Below are positions 1,769 to 61,958 of a stretch of DNA of 64,000 bases, in pieces. A program made the position numbers and the translations under genes. This DNA comes from Sulfurospirillum sp. 1612 (lineage in GTDB: Bacteria; Campylobacterota; Campylobacteria; Campylobacterales; Sulfurospirillaceae), in the NCBI RefSeq assembly GCF_036556685.1, contig NZ_CP140614.1, forward strand, positions 62,001-126,000, read 5' to 3'. Each line of letters opens with the position of its first letter. Position 1 is the stretch's first letter. The notes under the pieces are model-generated. The model saw only the letters and a program-made list of their open reading frames with translations. It was not told where the DNA came from and searched no databases.

Positions 1769-1779
1769 GGCAGAGTATC

Positions 1780-2742
1780 ATGAACTTTATAGAGATTGCA
1801 CAAGATGTCTTGAAATTGGAAGCAAAAGAGTTGTTAGATGCCGCCGTCAAAATTGATGCGGAGATGGAAAAAGCGGTCGAGCTAATTAGTCATATTAAAG
1901 GCAAACTCATCGTAACCGGTGTGGGTAAAAGTGGGTTGATTGGCGCGAAAATCGCTGCAACATTTGCCAGTACTGGAACCAGCAGCTTTTTTATTCATCC
2001 TACTGAGGCTTTGCATGGTGATTTGGGAATGATTGATAAAAATGATGCGGTATTGGCGATTAGTTACAGTGGTGAGAGTGATGAATTGATCAAAATATTG
2101 CCGCATGTCAAACGATTTGATGTCCCTTTAATCGCTATGGCACGAACAAAAAATTCTTCTTTAGGCAAATATGGTGATATATTTTTGTCCATCGATGTCT
2201 CTAAAGAGGCGTGTCCTCTTGGGGCTGCCCCTACTACGTCTACTACATTGACTTTAGCGATGGGAGATGCCCTTGCGGTGTGTCTCATGAAGAAGAAAAA
2301 TTTTCAAAAAGAAGATTTCGCATCGTTTCATCCCGGGGGTAGTTTAGGCAAGCAACTTTTTATTAAAGTCAAAGATTTGATGAAAAAGGATGAACTCCCT
2401 ATTGTCAATGCCAAAACCAGTCTCAAAGAGGCTATTGTCGTGATGAGTGAGGGACGATTGGGTAATGTCATGATTGTTGATGACCAACAACGCCTACTTG
2501 CTATATTGAGTGATGGGGATTTAAGACGGGCATTGATGCGTGATGATTTTTCGATTGAAGCCCTCGCCCTCTCGTATGCAACCAAAAATCCAAAAACACT
2601 CCAAGGGGACAATTTACTAGCTAGTGATGCGCTTGCCCTTGTTGAGTCGTATAAAATTCAATTGCTCGCGATTGTCGATGATGACAATAGACTCATCGGG
2701 ACCTTACATATTCATGACCTTATCGAAGCAGGTATCAAATGA
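1780..2742 (+). CDS. kpsF: KpsF/GutQ-family D-arabinose-5-phosphate isomerase
   Basis: This 320-residue enzyme interconverts D-ribulose 5-phosphate and D-arabinose 5-phosphate, the first step toward KDO for lipopolysaccharide. An N-terminal SIS sugar-isomerase domain (residues about 30-180) contains VTGVGKSGLIG and SYSGESDE. Two CBS domains follow (about 200-320) with LAILSDGDLRRA. It starts 11 bp after rnj and ends in an ATGA overlap with the downstream pseudouridine synthase, so the four genes from rnj to rarA look like one transcript. Length and domain order are normal for the family. Confidence 0.92.
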   Translation: MNFIEIAQDVLKLEAKELLDAAVKIDAEMEKAVELISHIKGKLIVTGVGKSGLIGAKIAATFASTGTSSFFIHPTEALHGDLGMIDKNDAVLAISYSGESDELIKILPHVKRFDVPLIAMARTKNSSLGKYGDIFLSIDVSKEACPLGAAPTTSTTLTLAMGDALAVCLMKKKNFQKEDFASFHPGGSLGKQLFIKVKDLMKKDELPIVNAKTSLKEAIVVMSEGRLGNVMIVDDQQRLLAILSDGDLRRALMRDDFSIEALALSYATKNPKTLQGDNLLASDALALVESYKIQLLAIVDDDNRLIGTLHIHDLIEAGIK

Positions 2743-3524
2743 TGAAGCCTATCCGACTCAATAAAATGATATCCCACAATACGAAGTATTCCAGGAGAGA
2801 GGCGGACAAACTGATACAAGAAGGTGCGGTGAGTGTTGATGGTGTTGTTGTCACAGACTTGTCAACAAAAGTGACCTTTGATAATAAAATCAAACTCAAA
2901 GGCAGAAGTCTCTACCAAAAAACCAAATACTCAGTGATTGTCTATCATAAACAAAAAGGCGAATTGGTGAGTAAAAAAGATGATAGAGGAAGAAAAACGA
3001 TTTATGATACCCTCCCCTCAAAATTTGCACACTTTATGAGCGTAGGACGATTGGATTTTACCAGTGAGGGGTTATTGCTGCTCAGTGATGCTCCTGATAT
3101 CGTCTCTGCGTTGATGCATGGAGATTTAGAGCGTATCTATTATGTCAAGATTAAAGGCCCGGTTACTGAGCACATGCAAACGGCCATGAAAGAAGGATTA
3201 TTTCTCGAAGATGCCAGCAAGGGCGGTCATGAGATGAGTAAAGTGCATTCGATGGAGTTTGCCCCATTTGTGGGGTATCGTATCATAAAAAACACCCCAA
3301 CCTACTCTACCATCAAAGTCGTTATCAATGAAGGGAAAAACCGAGAATTACGACGTTTCTTTGGATATTTTGATGCCGAAGTTGTTGGATTAAAAAGAGT
3401 GAGTTATGGCAAGATAGACCTTGATGCCCTCAAACCGGGAAAACACCGATTTTTAACGGCTAGTGAATATGATAATCTCAGGGATTATTTGGCCTATTCC
3501 AAAAGTGAAAAGCGTGATCAATAA
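2739..3524 (+). CDS. RluB/RsuA-family rRNA pseudouridine synthase
   Basis: A 261-residue pseudouridine synthase with an N-terminal S4 RNA-binding domain (residues about 4-50: RLNKMISHN, then SRREADKLI) and a catalytic domain carrying the Asp motif VGRLDFTSEGLLLLS. It isomerises uridine in rRNA; RluB (23S) is the likeliest subgroup, but RsuA or RluE specificity cannot be excluded by eye. The start ATG overlaps the kpsF stop (ATGATGA), implying translational coupling. Its 3' end overlaps the start of rarA. Confidence 0.88.
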   Translation: MMKPIRLNKMISHNTKYSRREADKLIQEGAVSVDGVVVTDLSTKVTFDNKIKLKGRSLYQKTKYSVIVYHKQKGELVSKKDDRGRKTIYDTLPSKFAHFMSVGRLDFTSEGLLLLSDAPDIVSALMHGDLERIYYVKIKGPVTEHMQTAMKEGLFLEDASKGGHEMSKVHSMEFAPFVGYRIIKNTPTYSTIKVVINEGKNRELRRFFGYFDAEVVGLKRVSYGKIDLDALKPGKHRFLTASEYDNLRDYLAYSKSEKRDQ

Positions 3525-4710
3525 CTTTTCTTTAGCATATCGTCCCTCTCATATAGAAGAGATGTGTGGACAGCAGCATCTCTGTGCTCCTGATGCGCCA
3601 TTTCGAAAACTGTTGGAAAAAAAGAGTCTGTCCCATTCTATATTTTTTGGTCCCGCAGGCGTGGGAAAAACAACGCTAGCAAAGATTGTTGCCAAGAGTA
3701 TGGAACTCCCCTTTTTTGAGTTGGATGCGACCAATTTCAAGCTGGAAGATATTCGGAAAATTTTGGCAAATCATCGCAATGCTTTATTGAAGCCTTTGAT
3801 TTTTATTGATGAGGTACACCGCCTTTCAAAAACACAACAAGAAGCCCTACTTCTGCCTATGGAAAATCACGAGGCTATTATCATCGGGGCTTCTACTGAA
3901 AACCCCTATTTTACATTGACCAGTGGTATCCGGTCGCGATCTTCTTTGTTTGAATTTTTCTCTCTGGAAGCGAAGGATTTAGAACGCGTATTGGAGATGA
4001 TTCATCAAAAGATTGATTTTGAAATCAAACCCGATGCCAAAGCCTATTTGATTGATTCATCTGCTGGAGATGTGCGTTCTATGCTGAATCTATTAGAATT
4101 CGCTCTCAAAGTGGATAGGTGTGTGGATCTAAAAACCCTAAAAGCGCTCCGACCTAATGCCCTCAAAGATGGTGTGAGTTCGAGTAATACCCATTATGAC
4201 CTTATTAGCGCTATGATTAAGAGTGTCAGAGGCAGTGATGTGGATGCGAGTATTTACTATCTCGCCCGCTTGATTGATGGCGGAGAAAGTGCTGATTTTA
4301 TCGCAAGGCGTTTGGTGATATTGGCCAGTGAAGATATTGGAAATGCCAATCCTAATGCGCTCAATCTTGCCAATAGTTGCTTGCAAAGTGTGAGTAAAAT
4401 CGGTTTCCCTGAAGCCCGGATTATTTTGGCGCAAACCATTGTCTATCTTGCTGCTTCTCCAAAATCAAACAGTGCCTATTTGGCGATTAATCAAGCTTTG
4501 GATTATGTAAAAAATGAAAAAAGGCTGGAGGTTCCCAAGCACTTGACAAAACTAGGCTCCAAAGCATATCAATATCCTCATGATTTTGGCGGATGGGTCG
4601 CACAATCTTATCTACCCAAGCCACTACATTTTTATGAAACATCAGGGATAGGGTTTGAAAAAACATTACAAGAATGGCTTGAAAAAATTAAGCAAAATAA
4701 GAAAAAATAG
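3514..4710 (+). CDS. rarA: Replication-associated recombination AAA ATPase RarA/MgsA
   Basis: A clamp-loader-like AAA+ ATPase acting at stalled replication forks. Walker A is FFGPAGVGKTTLAK, Walker B is FIDEVHR, and sensor 1 lies in IIIGASTENPYF, followed by the MgsA C-terminal domains (DFIARRLVILASEDIGNA). Family members begin right before the LAYRP motif, so I place the start at GTG 3514 (398 residues). GTG 3505 is an alternative, and an open frame extends to an ATG at 3463 inside the preceding gene. No strong ribosome-binding site decides among these. It overlaps the pseudouridine synthase stop by about 11 nt. Confidence 0.9.
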   Translation: MINNFSLAYRPSHIEEMCGQQHLCAPDAPFRKLLEKKSLSHSIFFGPAGVGKTTLAKIVAKSMELPFFELDATNFKLEDIRKILANHRNALLKPLIFIDEVHRLSKTQQEALLLPMENHEAIIIGASTENPYFTLTSGIRSRSSLFEFFSLEAKDLERVLEMIHQKIDFEIKPDAKAYLIDSSAGDVRSMLNLLEFALKVDRCVDLKTLKALRPNALKDGVSSSNTHYDLISAMIKSVRGSDVDASIYYLARLIDGGESADFIARRLVILASEDIGNANPNALNLANSCLQSVSKIGFPEARIILAQTIVYLAASPKSNSAYLAINQALDYVKNEKRLEVPKHLTKLGSKAYQYPHDFGGWVAQSYLPKPLHFYETSGIGFEKTLQEWLEKIKQNKKK

Positions 4711-15235: not shown

Positions 15236-15311
15236 GGTCGCGTAGCTCAGCTGGTAGAGCACTACCTTGACATGGTAGTGGTCGGAGGTTCAAGTCCTCT
15301 CGTGGCCACCA
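15236..15311 (+). tRNA. tRNA-Val (anticodon GAC)
   Basis: Seventy-six bases with a full cloverleaf. The acceptor stem GGTCGCG pairs with CGTGGCC, the anticodon stem CTACC with GGTAG around loop TTGACAT, and the T arm GGAGG-TTCAAGT-CCTCT. A is at position 73 and the CCA end is encoded. It stands alone between dctM and thrS. Confidence 0.96.
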
Positions 15312-15546
15312 TACTTATAATATAAAACTACTTTTAAATAGATGCAATAAAAATAAAAAACACCAAAATACTCTTTTTTATGTTATCAAGATTATTATAA
15401 GTTATATTTCTATATAATGGCAATTTAATTGGTTTTCTCATAAATTCACAATATGATGTTTTGAAGTGATGACACCCAATAAAAATTCATTTAATTGAAA
15501 ATTTTGTTCTTCCACTGTATGGGAGTTCTATTAGTAAAGGATAACA

Positions 15547-38047: not shown

Positions 38048-38132
38048 GCGGATGTGGTGAAATTGGTAGACACGCCAGACTTAGGATCTGGTGCCGCAAG
38101 GCATGGGAGTTCGAGTCTCTTCATCCGCACCA
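38048..38132 (+). tRNA. tRNA-Leu (anticodon TAG), likely attachment site of the element
   Basis: An 85-base class II tRNA with a long variable arm. Acceptor GCGGATG pairs with CATCCGC; anticodon stem CCAGA/TCTGG around CTTAGGA. It is the last tRNA of the array, and foreign element genes begin 36 bp after its CCA end, which suggests integration at its 3' end. No second copy of the tRNA end is present in the window. Confidence 0.95.
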
Positions 38133-38167
38133 TCACCTGAAATAGGTACTTTATTGACAAAATCAAC

Positions 38168-41217: not shown

Positions 41218-41421
41218 TCCTCTTCTTTTGCAATATTTATAAAAACCATTATATGTTATATTTTTATTTTTAAGGTTTTTATTGCTTAAAATTTTCCATA
41301 TACTTGCTATTCCAACATCCATTTCAAGATACATTTTTATTTCGTCTATATAATCATCCAGAACACTTTTTTTCCCTGGCTTTTGTTTTCTTTTTGTTAT
41401 ATTGTTTTTACCTTCCATCAT
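41212..41421 (-). CDS. Small TraK-like protein following the relaxase
   Basis: A 69-residue basic protein with a C-terminal module VLDDYIDEIKMYLEMDVG, then ITYNGFYKYCKRRGL. This Y..EI..L / S...I / YxxFxxYxK pattern is that of TraK-type accessory proteins of conjugative plasmids, and recurs twice more in this element. ATG 41421 overlaps the relaxase TAA stop. A relaxosome accessory role is an inference. Confidence 0.6.
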   Translation of the reverse strand: MMEGKNNITKRKQKPGKKSVLDDYIDEIKMYLEMDVGIASIWKILSNKNLKNKNITYNGFYKYCKRRGL

Positions 41422-44400
41422 TTTCAATCCCCATATTATTTTCATTTTCTTTGCTTTCTTCTAACTCAACCATTTCTTCCCTCTCAAATCTTTCTTGCCT
41501 TTCATTGTTTTTGATAATGTTTTTGGCTTCTTTGTCAAACAGAATATTCATTTTGGCGTCTAGCTGTTCCTCAAAATAATTGTACTCGTGTTCTTCAATC
41601 AATTCTTTGTTTTCATTTAGCAGTTGACTTGCTTGGTATATGTTATCTTCTTGAAGATATTCAGAAATTTCTTCTTTAAGTGCTTCCTTCTCTAAATAAG
41701 ATTCATAATCTTCTTTTCCATCTTGTAAAGACAATAATATTTGACTGTTAACATCTAGCATCTTTTGCACTTTCTCATCACTGATCTCTAGTCCCTCTTT
41801 TTCAATAGCCTTTTCCATGCCATCATATAGCATTTTGTTTGCTTTCTCTTCTACAAGTTCAAACTTTGCTATTTCTTTTTCAACTTCATATTTACTGGTG
41901 TAATTGTTTATGAATTTTGCTATCTCATAAGGTTTGTCTCTCAAGCCGTAAGCCTCAATGTATTCTTTCTCAAAATTGTTTTCTAATGCTCTGTTCGCTA
42001 TCTCCATGCCTTTAATGTTCAAAGTATCTGCGAGCTTATCTACTTGTATCAGCTTTTCATACATGGTGACATCGTTATGATTATTGTAGTGCTGTATCTT
42101 TTCAAAAGTTTTTATAAAATCTTTTTCCTTGCTTATGTCAGTGATCAGATCGTTATAATATTTTTCTTGGTTATCAAGACTTAAGTTGTCAGGATTGATA
42201 TCAAGCAGAAAAGAGTGTCTATCGTCCATCACGTCTTTAAACTCGCTAATATGTTCGTTGATAAAGTCTTTTGCAGTTGTTTTTGTGATATGATCGGGGA
42301 TATCTATGTATAATGTATCGGCAATTTTATACATAAATTCTAATTGCTTTTCACTTACCGGTGCATTCACAATTGATTCATTGTACGAATGTAAATTATC
42401 TTTTATAAAATGTCCTACGGTTTGTTGATCTTGATTGAACTCAATGTTGAGTTGTTCTGATATTTTGTTTGCAAATTCAATCTTTTTATAGCTTCCATCG
42501 GACACGGTTGGACTTTCTTTGGACTTTTCTTGGACATTGTTAAACTTATTTTCTTTCTGCGATCTTGAAATCTTATCGTCATCTTGCTTTTGTAGTTGGT
42601 CCCAATATGTCGTCGCGTTGTACTTTAGTTGTTCAACTTCTACAAAACTCTTTAATTGCTCTTTGTTATTTGTAAAAATCATCAAATTTTCTTCTGCTCT
42701 TGTGATCGCGACATAGAAAGAGTTAAAGTTTTGATTTGTAGCATCCATATATACAATAACATTTTTAGCGGTTTGACCTTGTGCTTTCATTGTAGTAACT
42801 GCATATCCGTAATCAAGATAATTGTAATCTTTGATATTAAATGTCAATTCATTCTTCTTATCCTGAATAAAAAAAGTTAAGTTCCCTTCGCTATCTATAT
42901 TTTTTAAAACTGCATTCTCTCCGTTATTAATACCTAGCTTTTTATCATTTTTTGTAAAAACGATTTTTTCATTAATGGATAAGTTTATATCCTTTTCAAA
43001 GTATGCTTGTATATTTTTACCGTATTTTTTAAGATCAATTTCATATTCTCCATCTAGTTGAATAGTATTTTTGTCGGTGTTAACGCTTGTAATCCTTAGT
43101 TCTCTCCCCGCTTTAAGATCCCCAATGGCTGCTTGTAGAAATACATGACTGCTCTCTTCATAGCTCTCTGCGAGGAATTTCTTGCTTGGGGTTAAATTGC
43201 TAGATTGTTTTACCGTAAAACGAGTGCTTCTTTGATCTACTACGCCTGCATCTTGAAGTCTTGATCTGATCCTTTCGTTTATTGTGTCTTTTACTTTATT
43301 TGTGTTGGTTAGAATTATATTGTCTTTGTGGCTTTCTCTCCCGGCTACGACCGCCAATTTGTCTTCATCATCCTTGAAATACTCATTAATGACCGCATCA
43401 ACTCCGTCTTTCGTCTCCTGGATGATTCCTTTCTTATCAAGAATGCCAAAAGCTTTAGCACTATCGTATTGATTAAGTGCCCAAACTGCGCTTTTTAATG
43501 TTTGATCTTTTTGTCTTAATACTTCATTCATATTTACGGTTTTCATATCAGCATGATTTTTGAGTAGTACAAATGGATCTCCGGCGCCGATTGCTTTAAA
43601 CTGTTTTTCATCACCGATAAAGACCAATTGCGCTTTTGTCTCGTTTGCAATTTGAACAAGTTTTGCAGCATCCTTTGTTCCTAGCATACTTGCTTCGTCA
43701 ACAATGATTTTTAGATCTTTGTCTCCATCTAGTTCAAGATAACCTTTTTCGTATTTGTTTAGAAAGCTTGCAATGGTTGAGCTTTCAATGCCGGCACCTT
43801 TAAAAACTTCTTTAGATTTGATTGCGGTTTTTAATTCTATTTCATTTGCAGCTTTACCGGTATAGGATAAACCTATAATCTTTGTATTAGATGATTTTAA
43901 CTCGTTAAGAGCTTTCAACATTGTAGTCTTGCCTACACCGGCGTCACCCTGAATACCGATAACTTGATTTTTATTGCTTAGGATATGTACTGTTGCTTTT
44001 TGCTGCCCTATAGTCAAACTTTTGCCTGTTCTATCTTGTTGTTCGTTAGAATAATTCTCGACAAGTTCTTTAGCATCTCTTTTTAAGTACGCCTGCTTGA
44101 TCGTTTTAGTCTCCTTGACTGATTCAATTAAGTCATGCTCTGCGGATAATATTGAGGCTGTCGTGTATTTGTCTTCACCGAGAGAAATCATAGTGTGGTT
44201 TTTAGTAAAAAGAGCTTCCTCAAAGACACTTGGTGCTATATGCTCTCTCATTGCCATTTTCCCGGCAATGGTAACAATGTCATTTTGAGAAAACACGGAT
44301 GTTTCTTCGCTTAAAGCATAAGTTGCATTTTCGAGATATTCTTTTGCTTTTTCTATCTTATCATCACGGCTTAGAATTTCATTTTTGCCTGGATTAACTT

Positions 44401-45361
44401 GTAAATGTTTTCCCTTATCAAACCCTAACGCTTCGGCTCTTTTTAGGTTGTCTTGTTCTACCGCTTTTCTGTCAATTTTTCCTTTCCATTCTCTTGAGTG
44501 ATATGCAGCCATTTGCTTGATCTCGCTGTCACTTTTATTTGGATATTTTTGTTTTAACTCTTTGATGAGACTTTCTTCGTTGAGTTGCACTGAGCGTTTT
44601 GAGAATTCTTCTAATAATTTATCGTCATCTTTGGTTTTAAAATCTATTTCAAAGAATGCCTGGCTTTGATTAACAATTCTTATATCGAATCCTAACTCAG
44701 ACATTGAGTTGGCAAGTTCCATACGATACAAAGAACCCACCTTAATATATTCTTTGAAAATATCACCGGTTTCAATTGCTTTAAAAGTTCCATCTTTTGC
44801 TTGTGTCATATTCATAACGACTGCATGAGTGTGTAAGGAAGGATCTACGGTTGTTTTCCCAGTTTCTCCGTTTTTGACCGGACGCGCTACCGAGTGGGTA
44901 AATTTAGCAACCGCAATATTCCCGCTTCTGTATTTTGTGGTATTACCATCAATTGTTTCTCGTGTTTGTATCAATCTTTCAAAGTTATCAACACCTTTTT
45001 CAACGGCTTTATGGTGTGCATTCATAATTGCGGTCGCTAGTTTTTTATCCCCCGTTGCGTTTGCAAGTTCTAAAGCTACCGATACAGATTTTGGGGCATT
45101 GAATGTTAAATCAAGTGCAGCTCTTTTTCTGTCACCATCTTTATCTAGTCTTGTTCCAACGACTTGATTTCCTTCATTGCTTTTACCCCACAAAGCTTTT
45201 TCAAGTTCTTTTTCTGTAACCACCCCAACAAAACCCAGACTCTCAGCGCCTTTGCCTTGCCATTGTCCAAGATCCCCCTCTTGTTGATAGTAGTTGTCTT
45301 TGCTCTCCACATGATATTCCATCGCTGAATTAGCACCTATCCAAGCTGGTGTTGCAATCAT
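41408..45361 (-). CDS. MobF-family conjugative relaxase-helicase (TrwC/TraI-like)
   Basis: A 1317-residue protein that would nick oriT, stay bound to the 5' end and unwind the strand. The TrwC relaxase domain has tyrosines Y16 and Y24-Y25 (DNYYQQEGDLGQWQGKGAE), FNAPKSVSVALEL, and the histidine motif DPSLHTHAVVMNMT. A RecD/TraI-type helicase follows: Walker A GIQGDAGVGKTTMLKAL, Walker B IIVDEASMLGT, and FIGDEKQFKAIGAGDP. The last 350 residues are acidic and helical. ATG 45361 has AAAGGAAC upstream and box 1 behind it. Confidence 0.93.
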   Translation of the reverse strand: MIATPAWIGANSAMEYHVESKDNYYQQEGDLGQWQGKGAESLGFVGVVTEKELEKALWGKSNEGNQVVGTRLDKDGDRKRAALDLTFNAPKSVSVALELANATGDKKLATAIMNAHHKAVEKGVDNFERLIQTRETIDGNTTKYRSGNIAVAKFTHSVARPVKNGETGKTTVDPSLHTHAVVMNMTQAKDGTFKAIETGDIFKEYIKVGSLYRMELANSMSELGFDIRIVNQSQAFFEIDFKTKDDDKLLEEFSKRSVQLNEESLIKELKQKYPNKSDSEIKQMAAYHSREWKGKIDRKAVEQDNLKRAEALGFDKGKHLQVNPGKNEILSRDDKIEKAKEYLENATYALSEETSVFSQNDIVTIAGKMAMREHIAPSVFEEALFTKNHTMISLGEDKYTTASILSAEHDLIESVKETKTIKQAYLKRDAKELVENYSNEQQDRTGKSLTIGQQKATVHILSNKNQVIGIQGDAGVGKTTMLKALNELKSSNTKIIGLSYTGKAANEIELKTAIKSKEVFKGAGIESSTIASFLNKYEKGYLELDGDKDLKIIVDEASMLGTKDAAKLVQIANETKAQLVFIGDEKQFKAIGAGDPFVLLKNHADMKTVNMNEVLRQKDQTLKSAVWALNQYDSAKAFGILDKKGIIQETKDGVDAVINEYFKDDEDKLAVVAGRESHKDNIILTNTNKVKDTINERIRSRLQDAGVVDQRSTRFTVKQSSNLTPSKKFLAESYEESSHVFLQAAIGDLKAGRELRITSVNTDKNTIQLDGEYEIDLKKYGKNIQAYFEKDINLSINEKIVFTKNDKKLGINNGENAVLKNIDSEGNLTFFIQDKKNELTFNIKDYNYLDYGYAVTTMKAQGQTAKNVIVYMDATNQNFNSFYVAITRAEENLMIFTNNKEQLKSFVEVEQLKYNATTYWDQLQKQDDDKISRSQKENKFNNVQEKSKESPTVSDGSYKKIEFANKISEQLNIEFNQDQQTVGHFIKDNLHSYNESIVNAPVSEKQLEFMYKIADTLYIDIPDHITKTTAKDFINEHISEFKDVMDDRHSFLLDINPDNLSLDNQEKYYNDLITDISKEKDFIKTFEKIQHYNNHNDVTMYEKLIQVDKLADTLNIKGMEIANRALENNFEKEYIEAYGLRDKPYEIAKFINNYTSKYEVEKEIAKFELVEEKANKMLYDGMEKAIEKEGLEISDEKVQKMLDVNSQILLSLQDGKEDYESYLEKEALKEEISEYLQEDNIYQASQLLNENKELIEEHEYNYFEEQLDAKMNILFDKEAKNIIKNNERQERFEREEMVELEESKENENNMGIENDGR

Positions 45362-45385
45362 CTCTTGTTCCTTTTTCTGATTATT

Positions 45386-45405
45386 CTCTTACTTATATTC
45401 AGAAA
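45386..45405 (-). promoter_or_regulatory. Element box 1 (TTTCTGAATATA), upstream of the relaxase
   Basis: Minus-strand TTTCTGAATATAAGTAAGAG, 24 nt before the relaxase ATG. One of nine like-oriented copies. Confidence 0.7.
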
Positions 45406-45441
45406 TTAACGATAAATCAATATATTTTTTGTTACATCGCT

Positions 45442-45454
45442 GTTACATTGTAAC
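45442..45454. promoter_or_regulatory. GTTACA-N-TGTAAC palindrome, copy 1
   Basis: GTTACATTGTAAC, with an extra half-site GTTACA at 45431-45436. Located 81 bp upstream of the relaxase ATG. Binding protein unknown. Confidence 0.55.
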
Positions 45455-45765
45455 GGTTATGAAAACATCGTAGGAGTGCGGTAAAAAATGCTATAATTAA
45501 AAAAATAAAGCGTCCTTCTGTCAATCGGTTTTCGGATGATTTTGTCTGAATAAGTGGTTGATTGGTTTGAATATTTAAGGTCTCAAAATGCGACTACAAA
45601 CTGCTGCACAAAAAAGAATTTGAAGCGGAACAAAATGAAATAATCTCGATTATCGAGCAGAGAGATCCTGGAGGGAAAAAGAAAAGGAAAATTTGATTTT
45701 GCGTCGTATCATAAGGAACGTATGGCAAAGAGAAGATGAGAGCGTTACCGCTTTGTTACCTCAGT

Positions 45766-45778
45766 GTTACAATGTAAC
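45766..45778. promoter_or_regulatory. GTTACA-N-TGTAAC palindrome, copy 2
   Basis: GTTACAATGTAAC, the exact reverse complement of copy 1, 324 bp away. GTTACC half-site-like words at 45754-45759 precede it. Confidence 0.55.
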
Positions 45779-45785
45779 GCGAGAT

Positions 45786-45819
45786 AGTATTCCAGTAAGA
45801 TAGCTCTTACTGGAATATT
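45786..45819. terminator. Strong hairpin after the Sel1-like gene
   Basis: Stem TATTCCAGTAAGA / TCTTACTGGAATA (45788-45800, 45805-45817) with a 4-base loop. It is 32 bp downstream of the minus-strand Sel1-like stop and could end that long transcript, though no T tract follows. Confidence 0.5.
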
Positions 45820-45850
45820 CTAAACACAGTGAGAAGTGAATTAAGGTTGG

Positions 45851-49983: not shown

Positions 49984-50723
49984 TTCACACCTCCTTTTTT
50001 ATTTTGAGATCGCAACTTTTCAAGTAACATTCTCATTCTTTGCCAGTCTGGTTCAAATTTTGCAAAATATTTTTTTGAGAATTGATTGTTAGACAAATCA
50101 TTCAATTCGTTTCCCGCAAACAAAATGTAATTAAAAAATGCTTTTTGAACAAATCTCCTTTTACCCATACCTTCGTAAAAACCTATTACTGTCGAAGTCT
50201 CATTAAATCCTGTCCAATTTTTCTTTTTGGTTAAAGCTGTCACACACCAACTTGTAAATCCACTTTCAATTTCTCCGTGTATGTAAGTTTCTCCGTTTCG
50301 ATTAGGGCGTAAAAAAGTCCGTAATGAAATAAGTTGATACAAACGATAATAATACTCGTATGCATCTTTTGAGTGTATGAGATACATATTTGAGTTAAAA
50401 ACTAGGTTGCTCCACTGGAAGCTTCTATCTATCGTATTTGTTGGTAATCCTATCGAACTTACGGTGTCTTTAAGCGTACCATATTGAGCAGTTAGGATAC
50501 TCCCTCTCGCGTTACAAAAACTTCGCATGTATATCATCCCGTTTTTACCCATAGCAGAATTTGTTGTATTTTTCACCCATGGTTTATCTTTTTGTGTCTG
50601 TATGTTCGCAACACCTTCTTTTATGGTTGCAATTACATTTTTGTTTTCCCACCAGTTGGTCTCTGCGCAAGCGCAAGAGACCAATACTGTTATCACTGTT
50701 ATTGCCGTCAAAACTTTTTTCAT
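49980..50723 (-). CDS. Exported protein of the transfer module, unknown function
   Basis: A 247-residue protein with a signal peptide ending near CACA (cleavage around residue 20); a Cys at residue 17 to 19 leaves a lipoprotein possible but no clean lipobox is seen. It is rich in aromatic residues. Start overlaps the TraK-like gene upstream. No family recognised. Confidence 0.68.
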   Translation of the reverse strand: MKKVLTAITVITVLVSCACAETNWWENKNVIATIKEGVANIQTQKDKPWVKNTTNSAMGKNGMIYMRSFCNARGSILTAQYGTLKDTVSSIGLPTNTIDRSFQWSNLVFNSNMYLIHSKDAYEYYYRLYQLISLRTFLRPNRNGETYIHGEIESGFTSWCVTALTKKKNWTGFNETSTVIGFYEGMGKRRFVQKAFFNYILFAGNELNDLSNNQFSKKYFAKFEPDWQRMRMLLEKLRSQNKKGGVK

Positions 50724-51190
50724 TTTTTCTCCTTTAATTTTTTAGATAAGTATGTCTTCACGTAGTAAAGAAAGGTGTTATAACATATCGAAATGTCTTT
50801 ATTTTCACTAAGAAATCTCAACCACGCTTTTCTAACGCTTCTGCTTTTTTCGACGAGTAATTTGATCTGCCCGTGATACGGGCTTAATTTACTCTGTGAT
50901 ATAGGGTTAATGCCCTCTTGAAAAATAGATTTTTCTATTTCATGTTTTTCCTCCCACTTTTTTTTTAATTTTTCCCCATCCATCTTCTCCTTTTCAATTT
51001 TCTTCGCTCGATCGTCAAGAAGTTTCTTTTCCTGCTGTTTTTTAATCTCTTCGATCGTTTCTATCTCGTATCTTCTACTACCGTCCGAAAATATCGTTGG
51101 TACTATCAGCCCTTCTTTTTCCATTTTTTCAAATTTTGTGCGAGTTATAATCTTAATTTTAATAATTAAGTCTGTTTTTGTAACTAGCAT
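50720..51190 (-). CDS. TraK-like small basic protein after the coupling protein
   Basis: A 156-residue, Lys-rich protein. The N-terminus looks like a DNA-binding wing (TRTKFEKMEKEGLIVPT), a charged coiled coil follows (about 60-105), and the C-terminus carries the TraK-type module (SPYHGQIKLLVEKSRSVRKA, CYNTFLYYVKTYL). GGAGG seven bases before ATG 51190 sets the start. Box 2 overlaps the upstream coupling-protein stop. Confidence 0.65.
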   Translation of the reverse strand: MLVTKTDLIIKIKIITRTKFEKMEKEGLIVPTIFSDGSRRYEIETIEEIKKQQEKKLLDDRAKKIEKEKMDGEKLKKKWEEKHEIEKSIFQEGINPISQSKLSPYHGQIKLLVEKSRSVRKAWLRFLSENKDISICYNTFLYYVKTYLSKKLKEKK

Positions 51191-51205
51191 TTGCAATCCT
51201 CCATT

Positions 51206-51226
51206 CTTTATTACAATATTCAGAAA
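51206..51226 (-). promoter_or_regulatory. Element box 2, overlapping the coupling-protein stop
   Basis: Minus-strand TTTCTGAATATTG then TAATAAAG, 15 nt before ATG 51190. The TGA within the box is the stop codon of the upstream gene. Confidence 0.65.
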
Positions 51227-53055
51227 TTAACTTTGAGTTCAGCATTTTTTCTACCGGCCAGTTGAAAATCAATATATTTGTTTTGTATATTTTGTATATT
51301 TTTTTCCATCTCTTCGGTAAGCACTTTTACCGCCATTGTCTTAGACTCAATATATTTTTTTGTGCCATTGTTTTTTAAAAAAACCGGTGCGAACTTACCT
51401 TTTAAGATCCACTTGCACCCTTCAATTTTTGCGTAAAATTCAAACTTGTTAAGCATCGTTATTTCGCTCTCGTCAATAAGATTTTCTTTAACCATTTGTC
51501 TTTGCAATTGTGATCGGTCTGCCATATCATGCATACCGAAACTGAAGCTTTCGTTGTTGCGGATTATTGTTGTTTTACCAAATAATTTTTCGAGGAACTG
51601 GGCACCAAAATTATTTTTAAAGATCAAAAAAGAGTTCGTCGTGTCAAGCATTGATTCCGCTTCTTTCTCACCAAATTCTTTTTTGATCTGAGAATATGAT
51701 TGCATAGCCATAAGGACTTTTATGCCTTTGGATCGACCAACTGCAAGTGCTTTTTCGAGGTTTTCCCCGATGATTTTTCCAAGCCGAGGTAACTCATCCA
51801 GGATAAAATAATAGTCTCTTGTTTTTGTGTCTTCGAGATCTAAGATCGATGACAATAAATACGATGTAATGACTCCATATAGCGGAGAAAAAACTTTGCT
51901 AAGATTTTCGGTCGCGACGAGGAACAACTTTCCACCCTTGCCATCGTTAACCCACTTATCGAAATACATTTTTTCGCCGGGTATGTCATCAAGATAGGCT
52001 AGATATTGTAGTATTTTTGCTTTTCTGATCAATGACGACAGAACAGATTCCGTCGCTCTAGTCGGGGCACCGTTTGCTTCGAAGAATAGGAACTGTGCCG
52101 ATACCATTTTTGCTTCTTCATCGTCGAGAATTTTGATGAGTTCACGAGGCGAAGAAACCATTTCATAAATTTTTTTATTGCTTAAGTTTCTTTTCGAGGC
52201 ATAGATCAAAATCGCCTCCATCACACATCTTGCAGCCGCCACCCAATGTGGGTCTTGGCTTTGTTTGTCGTCGGTGATTAGAGTCTCCGCGATGATGCCC
52301 GTGTCAATCTTGGATTTTAGCAAATTTGACAAAGAAAAACGTAAAGTTCTTACATCGCTGGGACACAAGATATAGTCTGTTTCTTTGTTGTAGTGTTTTT
52401 CGAGAAATTCGCCCTTAACGTCTATTATGATTTGCTTTGATGTAGCGGGTGTTTGTTTAATAATCTGATTTATCAAAACCGATTTTCCCTGTCCTGGTGC
52501 TCCCATAATACAAAGACCAGTAGCAAGAGAGATTCTAGGGATTACAAGATCTTCCACTTCATCATAATATTGATCATCCTCTTCATTAAGGTGTGTCATC
52601 TTAATTTTAAACATTTCTAGCGACTTAGGATTATGGCTTAATGCCTGTTCTTCTTCCATGTACTGCTTTATATTTTTGTTAAAATTGACCAATGTATCAA
52701 ATTTTGCACCTTTCTGATAGACATCTTCACTTAAATCATTTGTTTCTTTTTTTAGGGCTTCCTCGACTTTCGGTTTTGCATATTTAATAGAGGCGATGCT
52801 TATCAAACCCCCTAAAAAAAATACGATAATTCCAGGGGTTTGAAAGTAGGAATAATCAATGCCATAGGGTGCAAATGCATTTTTTATAGTAATGTAAAAC
52901 CACCATCCTGCGACCAAAAATAACATAGGAGCAAAATATATCCCCTCTTGTATCATCCAGCTTTTAATCCTCATGTCTGTTTCATGTGATATTTTTTCGA
53001 TCGCTTTGTAACGTTTATTTTCTAGCGATTTTTCGATTATATTTTTTTTCTTCAT
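51220..53055 (-). CDS. Type IV coupling protein (TrwB/VirD4/TraD-like)
   Basis: A 611-residue inner-membrane ATPase that brings the relaxosome to the secretion channel. Two membrane helices (about 39-57 and 74-91), Walker A IMGAPGQGKSVLINQ (183-197), Walker B YYFILDELPRLGKII, and the VGRSKGIKVLMAMQSYSQIK sensor region. Family TrwB_AAD_bind/TraG-D fits the MobF relaxase in this element. Box 3 lies 23 nt upstream of its ATG. Confidence 0.92.
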   Translation of the reverse strand: MKKKNIIEKSLENKRYKAIEKISHETDMRIKSWMIQEGIYFAPMLFLVAGWWFYITIKNAFAPYGIDYSYFQTPGIIVFFLGGLISIASIKYAKPKVEEALKKETNDLSEDVYQKGAKFDTLVNFNKNIKQYMEEEQALSHNPKSLEMFKIKMTHLNEEDDQYYDEVEDLVIPRISLATGLCIMGAPGQGKSVLINQIIKQTPATSKQIIIDVKGEFLEKHYNKETDYILCPSDVRTLRFSLSNLLKSKIDTGIIAETLITDDKQSQDPHWVAAARCVMEAILIYASKRNLSNKKIYEMVSSPRELIKILDDEEAKMVSAQFLFFEANGAPTRATESVLSSLIRKAKILQYLAYLDDIPGEKMYFDKWVNDGKGGKLFLVATENLSKVFSPLYGVITSYLLSSILDLEDTKTRDYYFILDELPRLGKIIGENLEKALAVGRSKGIKVLMAMQSYSQIKKEFGEKEAESMLDTTNSFLIFKNNFGAQFLEKLFGKTTIIRNNESFSFGMHDMADRSQLQRQMVKENLIDESEITMLNKFEFYAKIEGCKWILKGKFAPVFLKNNGTKKYIESKTMAVKVLTEEMEKNIQNIQNKYIDFQLAGRKNAELKVNF

Positions 53056-56444: not shown

Positions 56445-56464
56445 CTCTTATCTACATTCAGAAA
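56445..56464 (-). promoter_or_regulatory. Element box 5
   Basis: Minus-strand TTTCTGAATGTAGATAAGAG, 22 nt before the 26-residue peptide. The TGA is the stop codon of the 87-residue protein. The box and its downstream flank match box 6 over 24 identical bases. Confidence 0.7.
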
Positions 56465-56721
56465 TTATCAAATTTCTTCACAAAATCTAGTATGTTTTTA
56501 TCTTTCGCGATTTTCGCAATCTCTTTGATCTGTTGTTTTGTATCTTCGTCACTCAGCATTGCAAACGCGACAATCTTTAGCACAGCCATCATTTCTTTTA
56601 CCTCGCCGGCAAGACCCAAAGAGGATCTCGCCTCTTTTAGTTCTTGCGCTGCAAGTTCCATCTTTGCCGTAGCAAAATTTATCTCATCGATCATTGACAG
56701 AAGATCGCTATCATATTTCAT
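56458..56721 (-). CDS. Small helical partner of the ParA-like ATPase (TraM position)
   Basis: An 87-residue, acidic, all-helical protein. ATG 56721 lies inside the parA-like gene (11-base overlap), so the two are co-translated. No DNA-binding motif is seen. By position it corresponds to TraM in the IncP TraK-TraL-TraM order, without sequence support. Confidence 0.6.
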   Translation of the reverse strand: MKYDSDLLSMIDEINFATAKMELAAQELKEARSSLGLAGEVKEMMAVLKIVAFAMLSDEDTKQQIKEIAKIAKDKNILDFVKKFDNF

Positions 56722-57487
56722 ATTCCAACTCTTCCTTAATGGTGTCGATAAAAGAATCCAAAAAATCTTTTGATCTTTTACTTGCTCTAAATTCTCTCAA
56801 CTCTTTAAGGTATAGTTCTTTGTTGTTTTTATGCTCGTTAAAGGCGACTTTTTGAAATGTTGCAAGATCAACGGCTCTCGCCTGTTGTGCAAAATCACTT
56901 ATCGTCATCCTGCTTAACGACGCTAGCTCAAAAAATGATGATCTAGGGATGATTACGGTTTGTGGCTTACCCAATTTTTCAAAATAGCTTTCAAGACCTA
57001 GGGATTCATCTCCGAACCAAAAAAGCCAATCCTGCTTAATTTTAGAGATGTCTTCAACGGCATTTAGAGCAAAAATAATATTTTCATCTTTTAGAATTTT
57101 TGCCATGTCAACGGCATTTTTTGCTTGCACAAAAGAGTTCATGATCGGTACGATATAGGTTACTTTTGCGATTTCTTTAAGGTCCAAATCTTGTATCGCC
57201 TTAAGTACGCTCTTTGTGTCGTTACCGCCTCCGGCATCAATAATCAAAACATCTTCTGTATCTTCCAGAAGCGTAAAAGTAAGTTCTTCAAGTTTATTTT
57301 CACACTCATTGACTTTAATACTCTCAAATCTTTTAATATATCCGCTGTTTTTAAAGATATCAGATCTATTGTTATCGTCGATCTCTAAGATTTCGCAACC
57401 TGGAAAAACGGAAGACATAATGTGTGATGCAATTGTTGTTTTACCAACCCCTCCTTTTGTGCTTGCGATTACAAAAACTTTTTTCAT
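56711..57487 (-). CDS. ParA/MinD-like ATPase (TraL position)
   Basis: A 258-residue deviant-Walker ATPase. The P-loop is STKGGVGKTTIASH with signature lysine K11, and the Walker B region reads VLIIDAGGGND in place of the usual DxPP. No ParB follows. ParA-like proteins on conjugative elements (TraL, VirC1) place relaxosomes or plasmids; its setting between TraK-like and small helical genes fits TraL. AAGGAGAAAAA precedes the ATG. Confidence 0.82.
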   Translation of the reverse strand: MKKVFVIASTKGGVGKTTIASHIMSSVFPGCEILEIDDNNRSDIFKNSGYIKRFESIKVNECENKLEELTFTLLEDTEDVLIIDAGGGNDTKSVLKAIQDLDLKEIAKVTYIVPIMNSFVQAKNAVDMAKILKDENIIFALNAVEDISKIKQDWLFWFGDESLGLESYFEKLGKPQTVIIPRSSFFELASLSRMTISDFAQQARAVDLATFQKVAFNEHKNNKELYLKELREFRASKRSKDFLDSFIDTIKEELEYEI

Positions 57488-57528: not shown

Positions 57529-57963
57529 TTAACAATCAAACCAAGCGTTTTTTAGGGCATTCCTAAATTGGGCTCTCGTGACTGAATCCGTTATTTGTAT
57601 TAATCTTTCCGCTTCTTTTACATCTCCTTCCTTGTACATTTTAAAGCAATAGCAGACTTGCTTATCGCTCGTTAGTTTCTTAAAATCTTGATCCGAAATG
57701 TGATTATCCTTCGCCTTTTTTTGTATATTCTTGGTTACGGAGTTCTTACTCTCAATATTTTGTTTAGGCTGCGTTTTTAAAAAAATACAAATTGTCGAAA
57801 TAGAAACCTTAATTTTTTTGTATTGGATCAAAAAATCTTGGATTTGAAGAAGAGAGCAGTTGTTATCTCTTAGGGCTTGGATCTCATTTCGATAGTCATT
57901 CAATTTCATCCGCCGTTTTTTTTTCTTTGGAATTTCCTCTAAGTATTTTTCAACTTCTTTCAA
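57529..57963 (-). CDS. TraK-like basic protein beside the putative oriT
   Basis: A 144-residue Lys-rich protein with the module LNDYRNEIQALRDNNCS, then ISTICIFLKTQ, near its N-terminus and a helical C-terminal domain. TraK of IncP plasmids binds oriT. TTG 57963 has GGAGG five bases upstream; a GTG overlaps that site. It is the first gene before the 58-kb intergenic region. Confidence 0.62.
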   Translation of the reverse strand: MKEVEKYLEEIPKKKKRRMKLNDYRNEIQALRDNNCSLLQIQDFLIQYKKIKVSISTICIFLKTQPKQNIESKNSVTKNIQKKAKDNHISDQDFKKLTSDKQVCYCFKMYKEGDVKEAERLIQITDSVTRAQFRNALKNAWFDC

Positions 57964-58004
57964 TTTCACCTCCTTAAAACTCTTCCTTTGTTGGTTTTTG
58001 ATTT

Positions 58005-58024
58005 CTCTTATCTACATTCAGGAA
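58005..58024 (-). promoter_or_regulatory. Element box 6
   Basis: Minus-strand TTCCTGAATGTAGATAAGAG, 41 nt before TTG 57963. Nearly identical to box 5. Confidence 0.65.
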
Positions 58025-58369
58025 TTTTTATTTATTTTTAGAATTTTCGATAAATTTCTGTTTATTTTTAATAGTTTTTATTTGTTTCGAGTTGTTTTAA
58101 TGAGTTTAGGTTAATTTCGATTTTAGTTTTAATAAGTTTCGATTTGATATTTTTAAATGCCGATTGTATCGGAGTTTCAAAGCATTGTCATTTTTTTTCT
58201 TAATTTTTTGGAATCGTAGTAAATACCCTTGTCATCGAGCCCGAAGGGCAAAACAACACCTTGCGTAAGGTGTCTAAGAAAATAGAGCGATAAATAGGGC
58301 ATTTTGTAAAAAAATATATTTGGGGAGAAAAGGGCGGTTGAGCTCGTTTATAGTCAAAATTATTCGTTA

Positions 58370-58391
58370 TTTCTGAATATATATGTTAAGG
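58370..58391 (+). promoter_or_regulatory. Element box 7, plus strand
   Basis: TTTCTGAATATATATG then TTAAGG, 48 nt before the HD-GYP ATG. The only plus-strand copy, in front of the only plus-strand gene near the transfer module, which shows the box follows gene direction. Confidence 0.7.
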
Positions 58392-58439
58392 ATAATATTC
58401 AACTATTCAATTTTTTTGAGTAGTTCAAAAAGGAGAAAT

Positions 58440-59027
58440 ATGAATAATAATCCAATTTTAGAGTTTGAAAAATTTATCAAAAATTCTAAAAATAATGAAA
58501 CATCAGAACACGTGAGAAGAGTATCCTCATACACAAAACAATTGTGTATTTTATTGGGGATTGAAAATGAGAAAACTAACATAATATCAAAGGCCTCAGT
58601 TTTTCATGATATTGGGAAAATACTGATTCCAGATGCGATACTCAACAAAGCAGACAAGTTAAATCATGAAGAATGGAAGACAGTTAAAACTCATGCTTTG
58701 CTTGGATACGAAATGCTAAAAAGATCTAATAATGATATTTTTCAAGTTGCATCTTTGATCGCATATAGTCATCATGAGAAATGGGATGGTACGGGCTATC
58801 CATTGTCTCTTAGAGGTGATGAGATTAATCTCTTTGCGAGGATAGTTGCTGTTGTCGATGTGTTTGATGCTCTCTGTAGCATAAGAAGCTATAAGAAAGA
58901 GTGGGCAGTTGAAAAAGCGCTTGACTATATAGCAGATGAAAGAAGCAAACATTTTGATCCTGGCATTACTGATATATTCTTAAAAAATTCAAAGCTTTTC
59001 ATCAAAATTAAAAATGCCCATAGATGA
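58440..59027 (+). CDS. HD-GYP domain cyclic-di-GMP phosphodiesterase
   Basis: A 195-residue stand-alone HD-GYP domain. HD is H56-D57 in VFHDIGK, and the second motif is HHEKWDGTGYP (111-121), both intact. No sensor domain is attached. It would lower cyclic di-GMP in the host, perhaps altering motility or attachment around transfer. AAAAGGAG precedes ATG 58440; an ATG at 58383 lies within box 7. Confidence 0.87.
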   Translation: MNNNPILEFEKFIKNSKNNETSEHVRRVSSYTKQLCILLGIENEKTNIISKASVFHDIGKILIPDAILNKADKLNHEEWKTVKTHALLGYEMLKRSNNDIFQVASLIAYSHHEKWDGTGYPLSLRGDEINLFARIVAVVDVFDALCSIRSYKKEWAVEKALDYIADERSKHFDPGITDIFLKNSKLFIKIKNAHR

Positions 59028-59733: not shown

Positions 59734-60156
59734 TTAGCCTTGGTTAGCTATATAATTTCGTATTGTCTCAGGGTTGGCTTCCCCAATGCTACATACAAAA
59801 TATCCATCAGTCCAAAAAGTTTTTTCTTTCCAAAAATGCTTTTGTAAGAATTGCTGATGAATTTTCCAGATTCTTTTTGTTGATATAGATTTTATACGAT
59901 TGACAATAGCAGATATGGAAACCCTAGGGATATATTGTATCATTAAGTGTATATGGTCTTTATCTGTTTCCATCTCTATAATATCAAAATCACTGTTGCT
60001 CTCAATATCTCTAATGATATTTTTAGTATCTGTTTCTACTCCTCGCACAAGCAACTTTTTTCTATATTTGCATACTAATATTAAATGCACTTTTAGATTG
60101 TGTTTCGCCCTGTTTGTTGTTTGGTAGCCGTATAGTTTTTGATTGTTTTTCTTCAT
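59734..60156 (-). CDS. tnpA: IS200/IS605 Y1 transposase TnpA
   Basis: A 140-residue HUH single-strand transposase. HUH motif H68-I-H70 (KDHIHLMIQY) and catalytic tyrosine Y135 in RNYIANQG are intact, so the enzyme may be active. It cuts and joins the hairpin-marked ends as single-stranded DNA. AAGGAG precedes the ATG. Divergent from fic-tnpB. Confidence 0.93.
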   Translation of the reverse strand: MKKNNQKLYGYQTTNRAKHNLKVHLILVCKYRKKLLVRGVETDTKNIIRDIESNSDFDIIEMETDKDHIHLMIQYIPRVSISAIVNRIKSISTKRIWKIHQQFLQKHFWKEKTFWTDGYFVCSIGEANPETIRNYIANQG

Positions 60157-60203: not shown

Positions 60204-60229
60204 AATAAGTGAAAAATTAAGGATTGTCA

Positions 60230-60820
60230 ATGAAAAAGATAGATGAACAGAGTCTTGAAAATGCCTATCGTCTATTTGATAATGGCGACATAGAAAACAT
60301 TGAAGTAGGCACAATAAAAGGGCTACAGCAGATACATCTTTATCTTTTTGATGGACTCTATGATTTTGCAGGGCAAATAAGAGAACTAAATATCTCCAAG
60401 GGGAATTTCAGATTTGCAAACAGTTTGTACCTTAAAGATATTTTGCCAAAAATAGAGTCAATGAACGAAGATAGTTTTGAAGAGATCATTGAGAAATATG
60501 TCGAAATGAATATTGCTCATCCTTTTATGGAAGGTAATGGCAGAAGTATGAGGATATGGCTTGATCTGATCTTGAAAGAAAGGCTGCAAAGGGTTGTAAA
60601 TTGGCAGTTTGTGAACAAAGAAGCCTATCTTCAAGCTATGGAGAGAAGCCCGATTAATGATTTGGAACTTAGAACTTTACTGGGCAACAACCTAACAGAT
60701 GAGATTAACAATAGGGAGATCATCTTCAAAGGAATAGAGCAGTCTTATCACTATGAGGGCTACGAAAAAAGCGAGCCTCAAAAAGAGAGCGCAAAGAAGC
60801 AAGAGCAAAGCAGACCATAA
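60230..60820 (+). CDS. fic: Fic-domain AMP-transferase, class III (NmFic-like)
   Basis: A 196-residue Fic enzyme that transfers AMP to target proteins. The active motif HPFMEGNGR (97-105) is intact. The C-terminal inhibitory helix motif SxxxEG (S172 to G177 in [10 protein letters not shown]) marks class III, where inhibition is built in and no antitoxin gene is needed. The sequence is close to Neisseria NmFic, which modifies DNA gyrase. AAGGA precedes ATG 60230. It ends one base before tnpB. Confidence 0.9.
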
Positions 60821-60821
60821 A

Positions 60822-61958
60822 ATGCTCAAAGCCTACAAATACCGTATCTACCCGACCAAAGAGCAGATCACGCTGATCGAAAAGCATTTCGGTTCTACAC
60901 GGTTCTTGTATAACTACTTTTTGGAATACAGGCAAAAAGCCTATGCTAAGGGCAATCAGAAAGTCGGGTACATGGTCACACAGGCAGAACTTACCAAGCT
61001 GAAAAAACTCAAAGAGTATGAATGGCTTAATGAATGCGGAAGCCAGTCGTTGCAGATGGCGTTGAGGGATTTGGACTCTGCATACAGCAGGTTCTTCAAG
61101 AAACAAGGTGCTTATCCTAAATTCAAATCAAAAAAGCATACATCGCAGAGTTTCACTGCTCCACAGAACATTAAGTTAGCGAGCAACCGTGTTTATCTTC
61201 CAAAGTTTACCAAAGACGGCATCAAAGTAAAGCTGCATAGAGAGATGCCAAACAATGCCGTACTGAAACAGGCTACTGTATCAAGACAGAACAACCAATA
61301 TTTCGTATCTATTCTCATTGATGATGGAAATACTATACCTAAGCCAACCAAAGCCAAAAATGCGGTTGGTTTGGATATGGGATTAACCGATCTCATTATT
61401 ACTAGTGATGGAGTAAAGTATTCAAACAACAAATACTTTGTAAAGTCACAACAGAAACTCAAAAAACTGCAAAGACGATTATCTAAAAAAAAGAAAGGAA
61501 GCAAAAACAGACAAAAAGCAAAACTAAGAGTGCAAAAACTTCACACTAAAATTACAAATCAAAGAAAAGACAATCTTCATAAAATATCAAATGAGATAAC
61601 CAATCAATATGATATTATCTGTCTTGAAACTTTGAATGTTAAGGGTATGATTAAAAACCATAAACTAGCTAAATCAATAGCTGATGTTGCGTGGGGTGAG
61701 TTTATGCGACAATTAGAGTATAAGGCAAGCTGGAGAGGCAAAACTATTATAAAAATAGACCAATGGTTTCCATCAAGCCAAATATGCTCTTATTGTGGAG
61801 CAAGTACAGGTAAAAAACCTCTAAATGTTAGAAAATTCGATTGCCCTGAATGTCATAAAAAAGATATAGACCGTGATATAAACGCATCAATAAACATTAG
61901 AAACTACGGCTTAGGACAAATAGATAATAGAAATACGGCAGGAACTGTCGAAGTATAA
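60822..61958 (+). CDS. tnpB: TnpB RNA-guided nuclease
   Basis: A 378-residue TnpB with the RuvC triad intact: D185 (GLDMG), E269 (CLETLNVKGM), D352 (DRDINASINI), and a zinc ribbon C322/C325 and C341/C344. It is expected to cut DNA guided by an RNA read from the element's right end and so keep the IS in place. ATG 60822 follows the fic stop by one base; an open frame from 60753 overlaps fic. Confidence 0.93.
   Translation: MLKAYKYRIYPTKEQITLIEKHFGSTRFLYNYFLEYRQKAYAKGNQKVGYMVTQAELTKLKKLKEYEWLNECGSQSLQMALRDLDSAYSRFFKKQGAYPKFKSKKHTSQSFTAPQNIKLASNRVYLPKFTKDGIKVKLHREMPNNAVLKQATVSRQNNQYFVSILIDDGNTIPKPTKAKNAVGLDMGLTDLIITSDGVKYSNNKYFVKSQQKLKKLQRRLSKKKKGSKNRQKAKLRVQKLHTKITNQRKDNLHKISNEITNQYDIICLETLNVKGMIKNHKLAKSIADVAWGEFMRQLEYKASWRGKTIIKIDQWFPSSQICSYCGASTGKKPLNVRKFDCPECHKKDIDRDINASINIRNYGLGQIDNRNTAGTVEV

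Follow-up and report, generated by a model that had tools for sequence, protein, structure and literature searches.

A candidate MobF-type transfer origin beside a Stb-like operon in an integrative mobilizable element of Campylobacterota

Results

A candidate oriT in a 27.2-kb element

In the 64-kb window (the whole stretch of DNA analysed here, positions 62001-126000 of a single 2.38-Mb contig), the intergenic gap at 57964-58439 is very probably the origin of transfer (oriT) of a 27.2-kb element that encodes a TrwC-type MobF relaxase and a coupling protein. I put the probability of the whole reading, namely that the gap is the transfer origin of an integrated mobilizable element and is cut at 58273^58274 on the plus strand, at about 85%. 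The initial annotation had proposed an oriT in this gap, and comparison with relatives and with the nick sites of R388 and F supports the proposal well. What seems to be new is a reversed layout of the predicted oriT and a palindrome that contains the predicted nick.

The nearest relatives of the window among named records are Sulfurimonas and other Campylobacterales. The element is integrated at a tRNA-Leu gene and spans 38104-65291, its far end lying past the window. Its hallmark features are as follows.

38104..38134, plus strand: attL, 31 bp at the 3′ end of tRNA-Leu, an exact repeat of attR
65261-65291, past the window: attR, the exact 31-bp copy, adjoining the tyrosine integrase gene
63855-65087: tyrosine integrase(-like) gene, named from its own sequence and not by family search
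41408..45361, minus strand: MobF relaxase-helicase, 1317 aa, 12.9 kb from the candidate oriT
51220..53055, minus strand: coupling protein of the TrwB/TraD type (TrwB_AAD_bind, 199.3 bits)
58440..59027, plus strand: HD-domain (HD_5) gene, the first gene on the predicted leading side

The relaxase had been assigned to MobF from the start, and it scores above the cut-offs of both NCBIfam MobF (194.6 bits; cut-off 100) and NCBIfam relax_trwC (166.7 bits; cut-off 145.5). It matches the TrwC structure 1omh at E 2e-43 and the F TraI structure 1p4d at E 8e-26, is nearest to TrwC and retains the YY and HUH residues. An S26 peptidase is also encoded in the element. Family searches of the genome found neither VirB4 (PF03135) nor TraC (PF11130); therefore, transfer of the element would need a helper. 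With att repeats, an integrase, a relaxase and no T4SS ATPase of its own, the element is classed as an integrative mobilizable element, and its excision is predicted from the sequence.

Some other features of the window were noted. A second basic protein (50720-51196) has a C-terminus weakly like IncP TraK (DUF5338, E 0.034, below the cut-off). From a reading of the sequence, an IS200/IS605-like TnpA gene (59734-60156, minus strand) and a TnpB gene (60753-61958, plus strand) flank a Fic-domain-like gene (60224-60820), whose end overlaps the TnpB start. At 15236-15401, the Rfam antisense RNA HPnc0260 (minus strand, 15273-15401; 78.5 bits, gathering 59) overlaps a tRNA-Val on the opposite strand.

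Relatives of the element

Relaxase matches at E 1e-20 or better were found in 27 of 398 genomes of the order. The closest relaxases are those of G023, G044 and G096 (47-48%), and the coupling protein is also common to all three. A search with the coupling-protein alignment gave seven more loci. In L080 (Sulfurimonas sp. OB8), the left part of the element is complete and includes the HD gene, which there too adjoins the site and faces the traK-like gene. The G044 contig begins at parA. In a second, more distant set of elements, traK-like and ParA genes occur near a MobF relaxase in variable order. Thus, the pairing is common in the phylum and not peculiar to the window. No plasmid match to the traK-like protein was found by tblastn, and a search of viral contigs with the coupling protein found no relative. 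Sixteen exact pattern matches in viral contigs were rejected, their loci being non-homologous and 15 of the 16 lying inside ORFs of 50 aa or more.

A conserved core in the gap

The initial annotation had described a 7-bp hairpin followed by CTAAG and a smaller hairpin, and both were found, at the second and third positions below.

57964..58439, no strand: intergenic gap, the proposed oriT and promoter of the traK/stbA-like gene
58256..58273, plus strand: palindrome ACACCTT-GCGT-AAGGTGT, conserved core of the proposed oriT, with CTAAG next
58239..58249, plus strand: small hairpin GCCC-GAA-GGGC, not conserved in sequence (a different hairpin is there in L080)
58248..58264, plus strand: weak hairpin GCAA...TTGC with a 4-bp stem and a 9-nt loop, directly before the GTAAGGTGT core and absent in L080 and G096
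58263..58276, plus strand: MobF-type nick site GCGTAAGGTGT^CTA, predicted nick 58273^58274, aligned with R388 and F

The hairpins by themselves are weak evidence. The window has 78 seed matches for perfect 7-bp arms with loops of 3-8, and 28 of them, including this one, have at least three G/C in the arm. The local DNA fold has a z of -2.2, with 17 of 500 shuffles equally stable, and no fold signal was seen at the site in G096 (z +0.3). It is conservation, not the hairpin, that exceeds chance. At up to two mismatches, GCGTAWGGTGTCTA occurs once in the window, where 0.30 occurrences are expected. The core TTGCGTAAGGTGTCTAAG recurs on the plus strand before the traK-like gene in all three relatives whose gap is available (L080, G023 and G096), that is, in 4/4 gaps including that of the window. 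In all six pairs of homologous gaps the core is the best ungapped local match, and in five of the six it exceeds the maximum of 40 shuffles. The exact 17-mer is present in two of the 398 genomes (G000 and G023), both times in the gap before the traK-like gene; allowing one mismatch adds G096 and two matches inside genes (G218 and G031, rejected for that position), while the reversed control gives five matches.

The shared block reads ..CAACACCTTGCGTAAGGTGTCTAAG.. in the window and L080, ..CAACACCTTGCGTATGGTGTCTAAC.. in G096 and ..ACACCTGAGCAAGCAAAGCTTGCGTAAGGTGTCTATG.. in G023. A rival explanation makes the palindrome an operator or a partition site, recognised by the stbA/traK-like protein or by another regulator, and puts the oriT elsewhere. 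The stbA-like gene does lie downstream of the palindrome, with a promoter motif nearby. However, one arm of the palindrome has a mismatch in G096, an inner hairpin separates the half-sites in G023, and conservation extends beyond the palindrome on the CTA side. Moreover, other MobF elements have the GTNNGGTGT core but no palindrome, and a separate phased array (described below) is a likelier place for StbA to bind. This rival explanation is therefore unlikely.

A strongly structured 130-bp stretch lies at the contig start of the G044 element, before parA (L055:50-185), and has a hairpin followed by CCAAGGTG. It was not counted as a site, since inverted AGCAGACTAAG repeats bound it and the contig is cut there; it is perhaps a small insertion.

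Agreement with MobF nick sites

In form, the core fits the nick sites of R388 and F, each a hairpin with GTNNNGTNT^ after it. The aligned sites are GCGTATTGTCT^ATAG in R388 (with its hairpin, GCACCGAAAGGTGC-GTATTGTCT^ATAG) and GCGTGGGGTGT^GG in F (with its hairpin, GCAAAAACTTGTTTTTGC-GTGGGGTGT^GG). Public records confirm the sequence of both sites, and I take the nick positions within them to be those marked. Of the 11 bases of the window core, two differ from F and three from R388. The sequence GCGTNNNGTNT has four matches in the 64-kb window, and the one at 58263-58273 is that in the conserved gap. In G023 a clear 6-bp stem ends exactly before GTAAGGTGT, leaving a 9-nt spacing to the predicted nick, as in R388 and F. 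The corresponding stem of the window has 4 bp with its 9-nt loop, and L080 and G096 have none of at least 4 bp. Thus, the usual pre-nick stem is weak or absent in the window, L080 and G096, and the palindrome takes in the nick-proximal bases.

I searched 17 MobF loci and R388 for a stem of at least 4 bp directly before GTNN[GT]GT[GC]T. The R388 nick site was the sole match in 8 kb of R388. Matches outside genes were found in seven of the 17 loci (window, G023, G182, G127, G213, G231 and G348), and an eighth, in G249, lies inside the 5′ (upstream) extension of the relaxase ORF. L080, G096 and G335 have the core without a stem of at least 4 bp. In total, the motif is present in 11 of 17 loci, with the hairpin in eight, and the search found no site in the other six (G044, G180, G359, G064, G211 and G193). 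The rule also matched four coding places, and shuffled sequences gave 3.8 matches summed over the 17 loci. G249, G182 and G127 are near-identical and represent one lineage. Left out of the 17 were L062-L064 (no relaxase match), contigs L079 and L082-L085 (too short for the gap), R751 and Helicobacter cetorum (MobP), and relaxase matches without a retrieved neighbourhood.

The initial annotation had named the region upstream of the relaxase, at 45.4-45.8 kb, as the place where a competing oriT might lie. Neither a GCGTNNNGTNT site nor a hairpin with GTNN[GT]GT[GC]T was found there. The gap at 45362-45850 was rejected as an oriT: it contains repeated GTTACAWTGTAAC and an inverted repeat of 11-12 bp, but the MobF core is missing. 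Among the relatives, no long gap precedes the relaxase in G023 and G044, which have a full relaxase gene, and that of G096 is about 100 bp. The long inverted repeat at 45362-45850 (ATTCCAGTAAGA...TCTTACTGGAAT) and the copies of GTTACATTGTAAC / GTTACAATGTAAC there are probably regulatory.

Phased repeats and a Stb-like operon

As initially described, the gap is followed by genes for a basic protein, a ParA ATPase and a small overlapping protein.

58023..58150, minus strand: degenerate repeats with a 10-bp period (autocorrelation; TRF period 10) between the predicted nick and the stbA-like gene
58004..58021, minus strand: promoter-like motif CTGAATGTAGATAAGAGA before the stbA-like gene, recurring at other operons of the element
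57529..57969, minus strand: stbA/traK-like basic HTH protein, 146 aa (family alignment)
56711..57487, minus strand: stbB/traL-like ParA ATPase with KGGVGKTT (CbiA, 29.9 bits)
56458..56721, minus strand: stbC/traM-like small protein, 87 aa, overlapping the ParA gene by 11 bp

The repeats may be the binding array of the stbA-like protein. They are found at all four clade sites and in R388. The autocorrelation z is 4.5 in the window, 4.1 in L080 and 4.4 in G096, each at lag 10, and 5.1 in G023 and 4.9 in R388, both at lag 11. For periodicity, the gap of the window ranks first among 12 intergenic gaps in 80 kb. In R388, the stbDRs are 9-bp units with two-nucleotide spacing and are bound by StbA (PMC3098194), which corresponds to the 11-bp spacing. 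A shared promoter-like motif, CTGAATRTANATAAGAGA, occurs with 0-2 mismatches on the minus strand at 45402, 55414, 56461, 58021 and 59526. It precedes the relaxase gene, the stbA-like gene and other genes or operons of the element, five in all, and no further match at up to two mismatches was found in 80 kb.

A three-gene operon with a ParA-type ATPase in the middle thus stands beside the candidate oriT, and the order is the same in L080, G023 and G096. For the first gene, a TTG start at 57964 suits the AAGGAGG better than the listed GTG. The family profile of its product is linked weakly to R751 TraK (hhalign P 0.003, Prob 10.6) and to R388 StbA (P 0.007, Prob 5.3), and DUF5338 matches one of 12 family members (G023) below the cut-off. 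Against PDB sequences the profile gave nothing meaningful. A low-confidence model (two-sequence AlphaFold, mean pLDDT 60.9) has a three-helix region at 23-65; with an E limit of 0.001, Foldseek matched nothing to it, and the matches from VIA-align 2 were all generic and HTH-like, with a top Z of 5.2 and without the StbA structure 7pc1. Because the profile link is weak, a stbA-like role is proposed from the position, the basic HTH-like character and the array. The best curated match of the ParA is NCBIfam StbB over residues 4-204 (33.6 bits, E 2.5e-8, cut-off 200), and that to TraL is weak (14.8 bits, E 0.014, cut-off 360). Since both scores lie under their cut-offs, the protein is called Stb-like and not a filed member. 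The small protein has no family match and is 46% identical to the L080 protein at the same place.

The initial annotation had seen in this gene order a mixture of MobF and IncP lineages. Such a hybrid is not required, because the Stb trio is already known beside the oriT of R388, a MobF plasmid. Guynet et al. (2011; PMC3098194) described stbABC beside the oriT in MOBF11, MOBP11, MOBP6 and MOBP13/14 plasmids, and related StbA to TraK_RP4 and StbB to TraL_RP4. The trio is therefore better read as a Stb system. The same paper distinguishes two groups of StbB, one with KGG (MOBP) and one with SGXXGK (MOBF11 and some MOBP6). As that division is given there, the pairing of MobF with a KGG-type ParA falls outside it, and the KGG motif is the one remaining trace of a MobF/MOBP mix.

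That an IncP-type (MobP) oriT is retained beside a TraKLM operon is very improbable. Such an oriT would accord with the traK-traL-traM order running from the gap in R751, the weak profile match to R751 TraK and the KGG-type ParA. However, the core matches MobF nick sites, and the sole relaxase identified in the element is MobF. RP4/R751 has a MobP relaxase. Its TraK binds between the nick and traK (PMC3098194), and no 10-11 bp periodicity was found in the R751 traJ-traK gap. R388 resembles the window in both the core and the phased repeats; comparison with IncP (R751) reveals no shared periodicity.

Polarity of the predicted nick

Because the core is nearly palindromic, the choice of strand rests on the consensus CGTNNGGTGT, which the plus strand matches in 4/4 clade sites and the minus strand in none. 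The plus strand was chosen with good confidence on this sequence match. It is rather improbable, though less so than an operator or a MobP oriT, that the gap is an oriT cut on the minus strand (CGCAAGGTGT^TG), with the Stb genes leading as in R388. Besides the near-palindrome, a TTG follows the minus-strand repeat in three of the four clade sites, and the polarity would then equal that of R388 and the other loci. Yet CGTNNGGTGT is the consensus of the other elements, and in G023 only the plus-strand equivalent has the 9-nt distance from hairpin to nick of R388 and F.

With the strand that carries CGTNNGGTGT taken as the cut strand, the array and the traK-like gene lie 5′ of the hairpin, on the trailing side, at all four clade sites. 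They lie on the leading side (3′ of the nick) in R388, G249, G182, G127, G213, G231, G348 and G335. The periodicity agrees: in the clade, z is 3.7-4.6 at lag 10 or 11 on the trailing side and at most 2.8 on the leading side, the value of the window, which is thus not clean. In the seven other loci, z is 2.0-5.2 on the leading side and at most 2.3 on the trailing side, G335 being a close call on the latter. I lean, with some reserve, towards the view that the Campylobacterota MobF clade turned the oriT round relative to the Stb module and that a palindrome including the nick replaced the nick-proximal stem. The nick would then read away from the array, and the segregation and transfer genes would enter last. 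This reversal depends on the choice of strand, the core being nearly palindromic. If it is true, relaxosome opening, and not the early-entering region, could be what StbA acts on when bound on the trailing side, and the arrangement would be a natural test of whether Stb modules need to be on the leading side.

Proposed mechanism and comparison with known systems

Once the element is excised, the plus-strand core at 58256-58276 would be bound by the MobF relaxase, which would cut after GCGTAAGGTGT and stay on the 5′ end. The cut strand would then pass into the coupling protein and into a T4SS that a different element provides, the HD-gene side leading and the Stb genes coming last. By coating the 10-bp-phased repeats between the nick and its own gene, the stbA/traK-like protein would control the operon. 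Together with the ParA, it may place the DNA for segregation or transfer.

R388 (IncW, MobF) resembles this system in its TrwC-type relaxase, its hairpin/GCGTNNNGTNT^ core and its phased repeats between the nick and an operon for a DNA-binding protein, a ParA and a small protein. It differs in that trwA, trwB and trwC are on one side and stb leads, whereas the stb genes and repeats of the window are predicted to trail. The window differs further in the 12.9 kb that separate its relaxase gene from the site, in the KGG motif of its ParA and in that the searches found no T4SS. The F plasmid resembles the window in its nick core (GCGTGGGGTGT^ against GCGTAAGGTGT^, with the two differences given above). 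The relaxase is nearer to TrwC than to F TraI. The oriT of F presumably lies far from its relaxase gene, as in the window, and F is not known to have a Stb operon of this kind.

At the level of titles, literature searches on oriT and relaxase in Sulfurimonas and in integrative MobF elements of Campylobacter found no prior report of such an oriT. The candidate provides a sequence-defined, testable oriT for Campylobacterota MobF elements. The rule (hairpin, GTNNGGTGT, phased repeats and Stb operon) can find probable transfer origins kilobases away from the relaxase gene.

Stb-like genes elsewhere in the phylum

The Helicobacter cetorum plasmid pHCD (L051, NC_017736.1), a MobP plasmid, has a small gene, a StbB-like ParA gene and a small gene at 1576-3747, divergent from mobC. 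Thus, the trio accompanies MobP relaxases in the phylum too.

Circularly permuted StbB/ParA-like ATPases were observed at L067:6449-7195, L071:10883-11638, L110:1486-2244 and L111:1489-2250; a literature search at the level of titles found nothing on point. The ParA of the window is normal, without permutation. In the permuted proteins, the part that normally follows Walker A (IIEIDDNNNSNVF) comes first, and Walker A itself (STKGGVGKS/T) lies about 20 residues before the C-terminus. They come from four genomes of three families (G213, G335, G114 and G216), each with a MobF relaxase within a few kb on the same contig.
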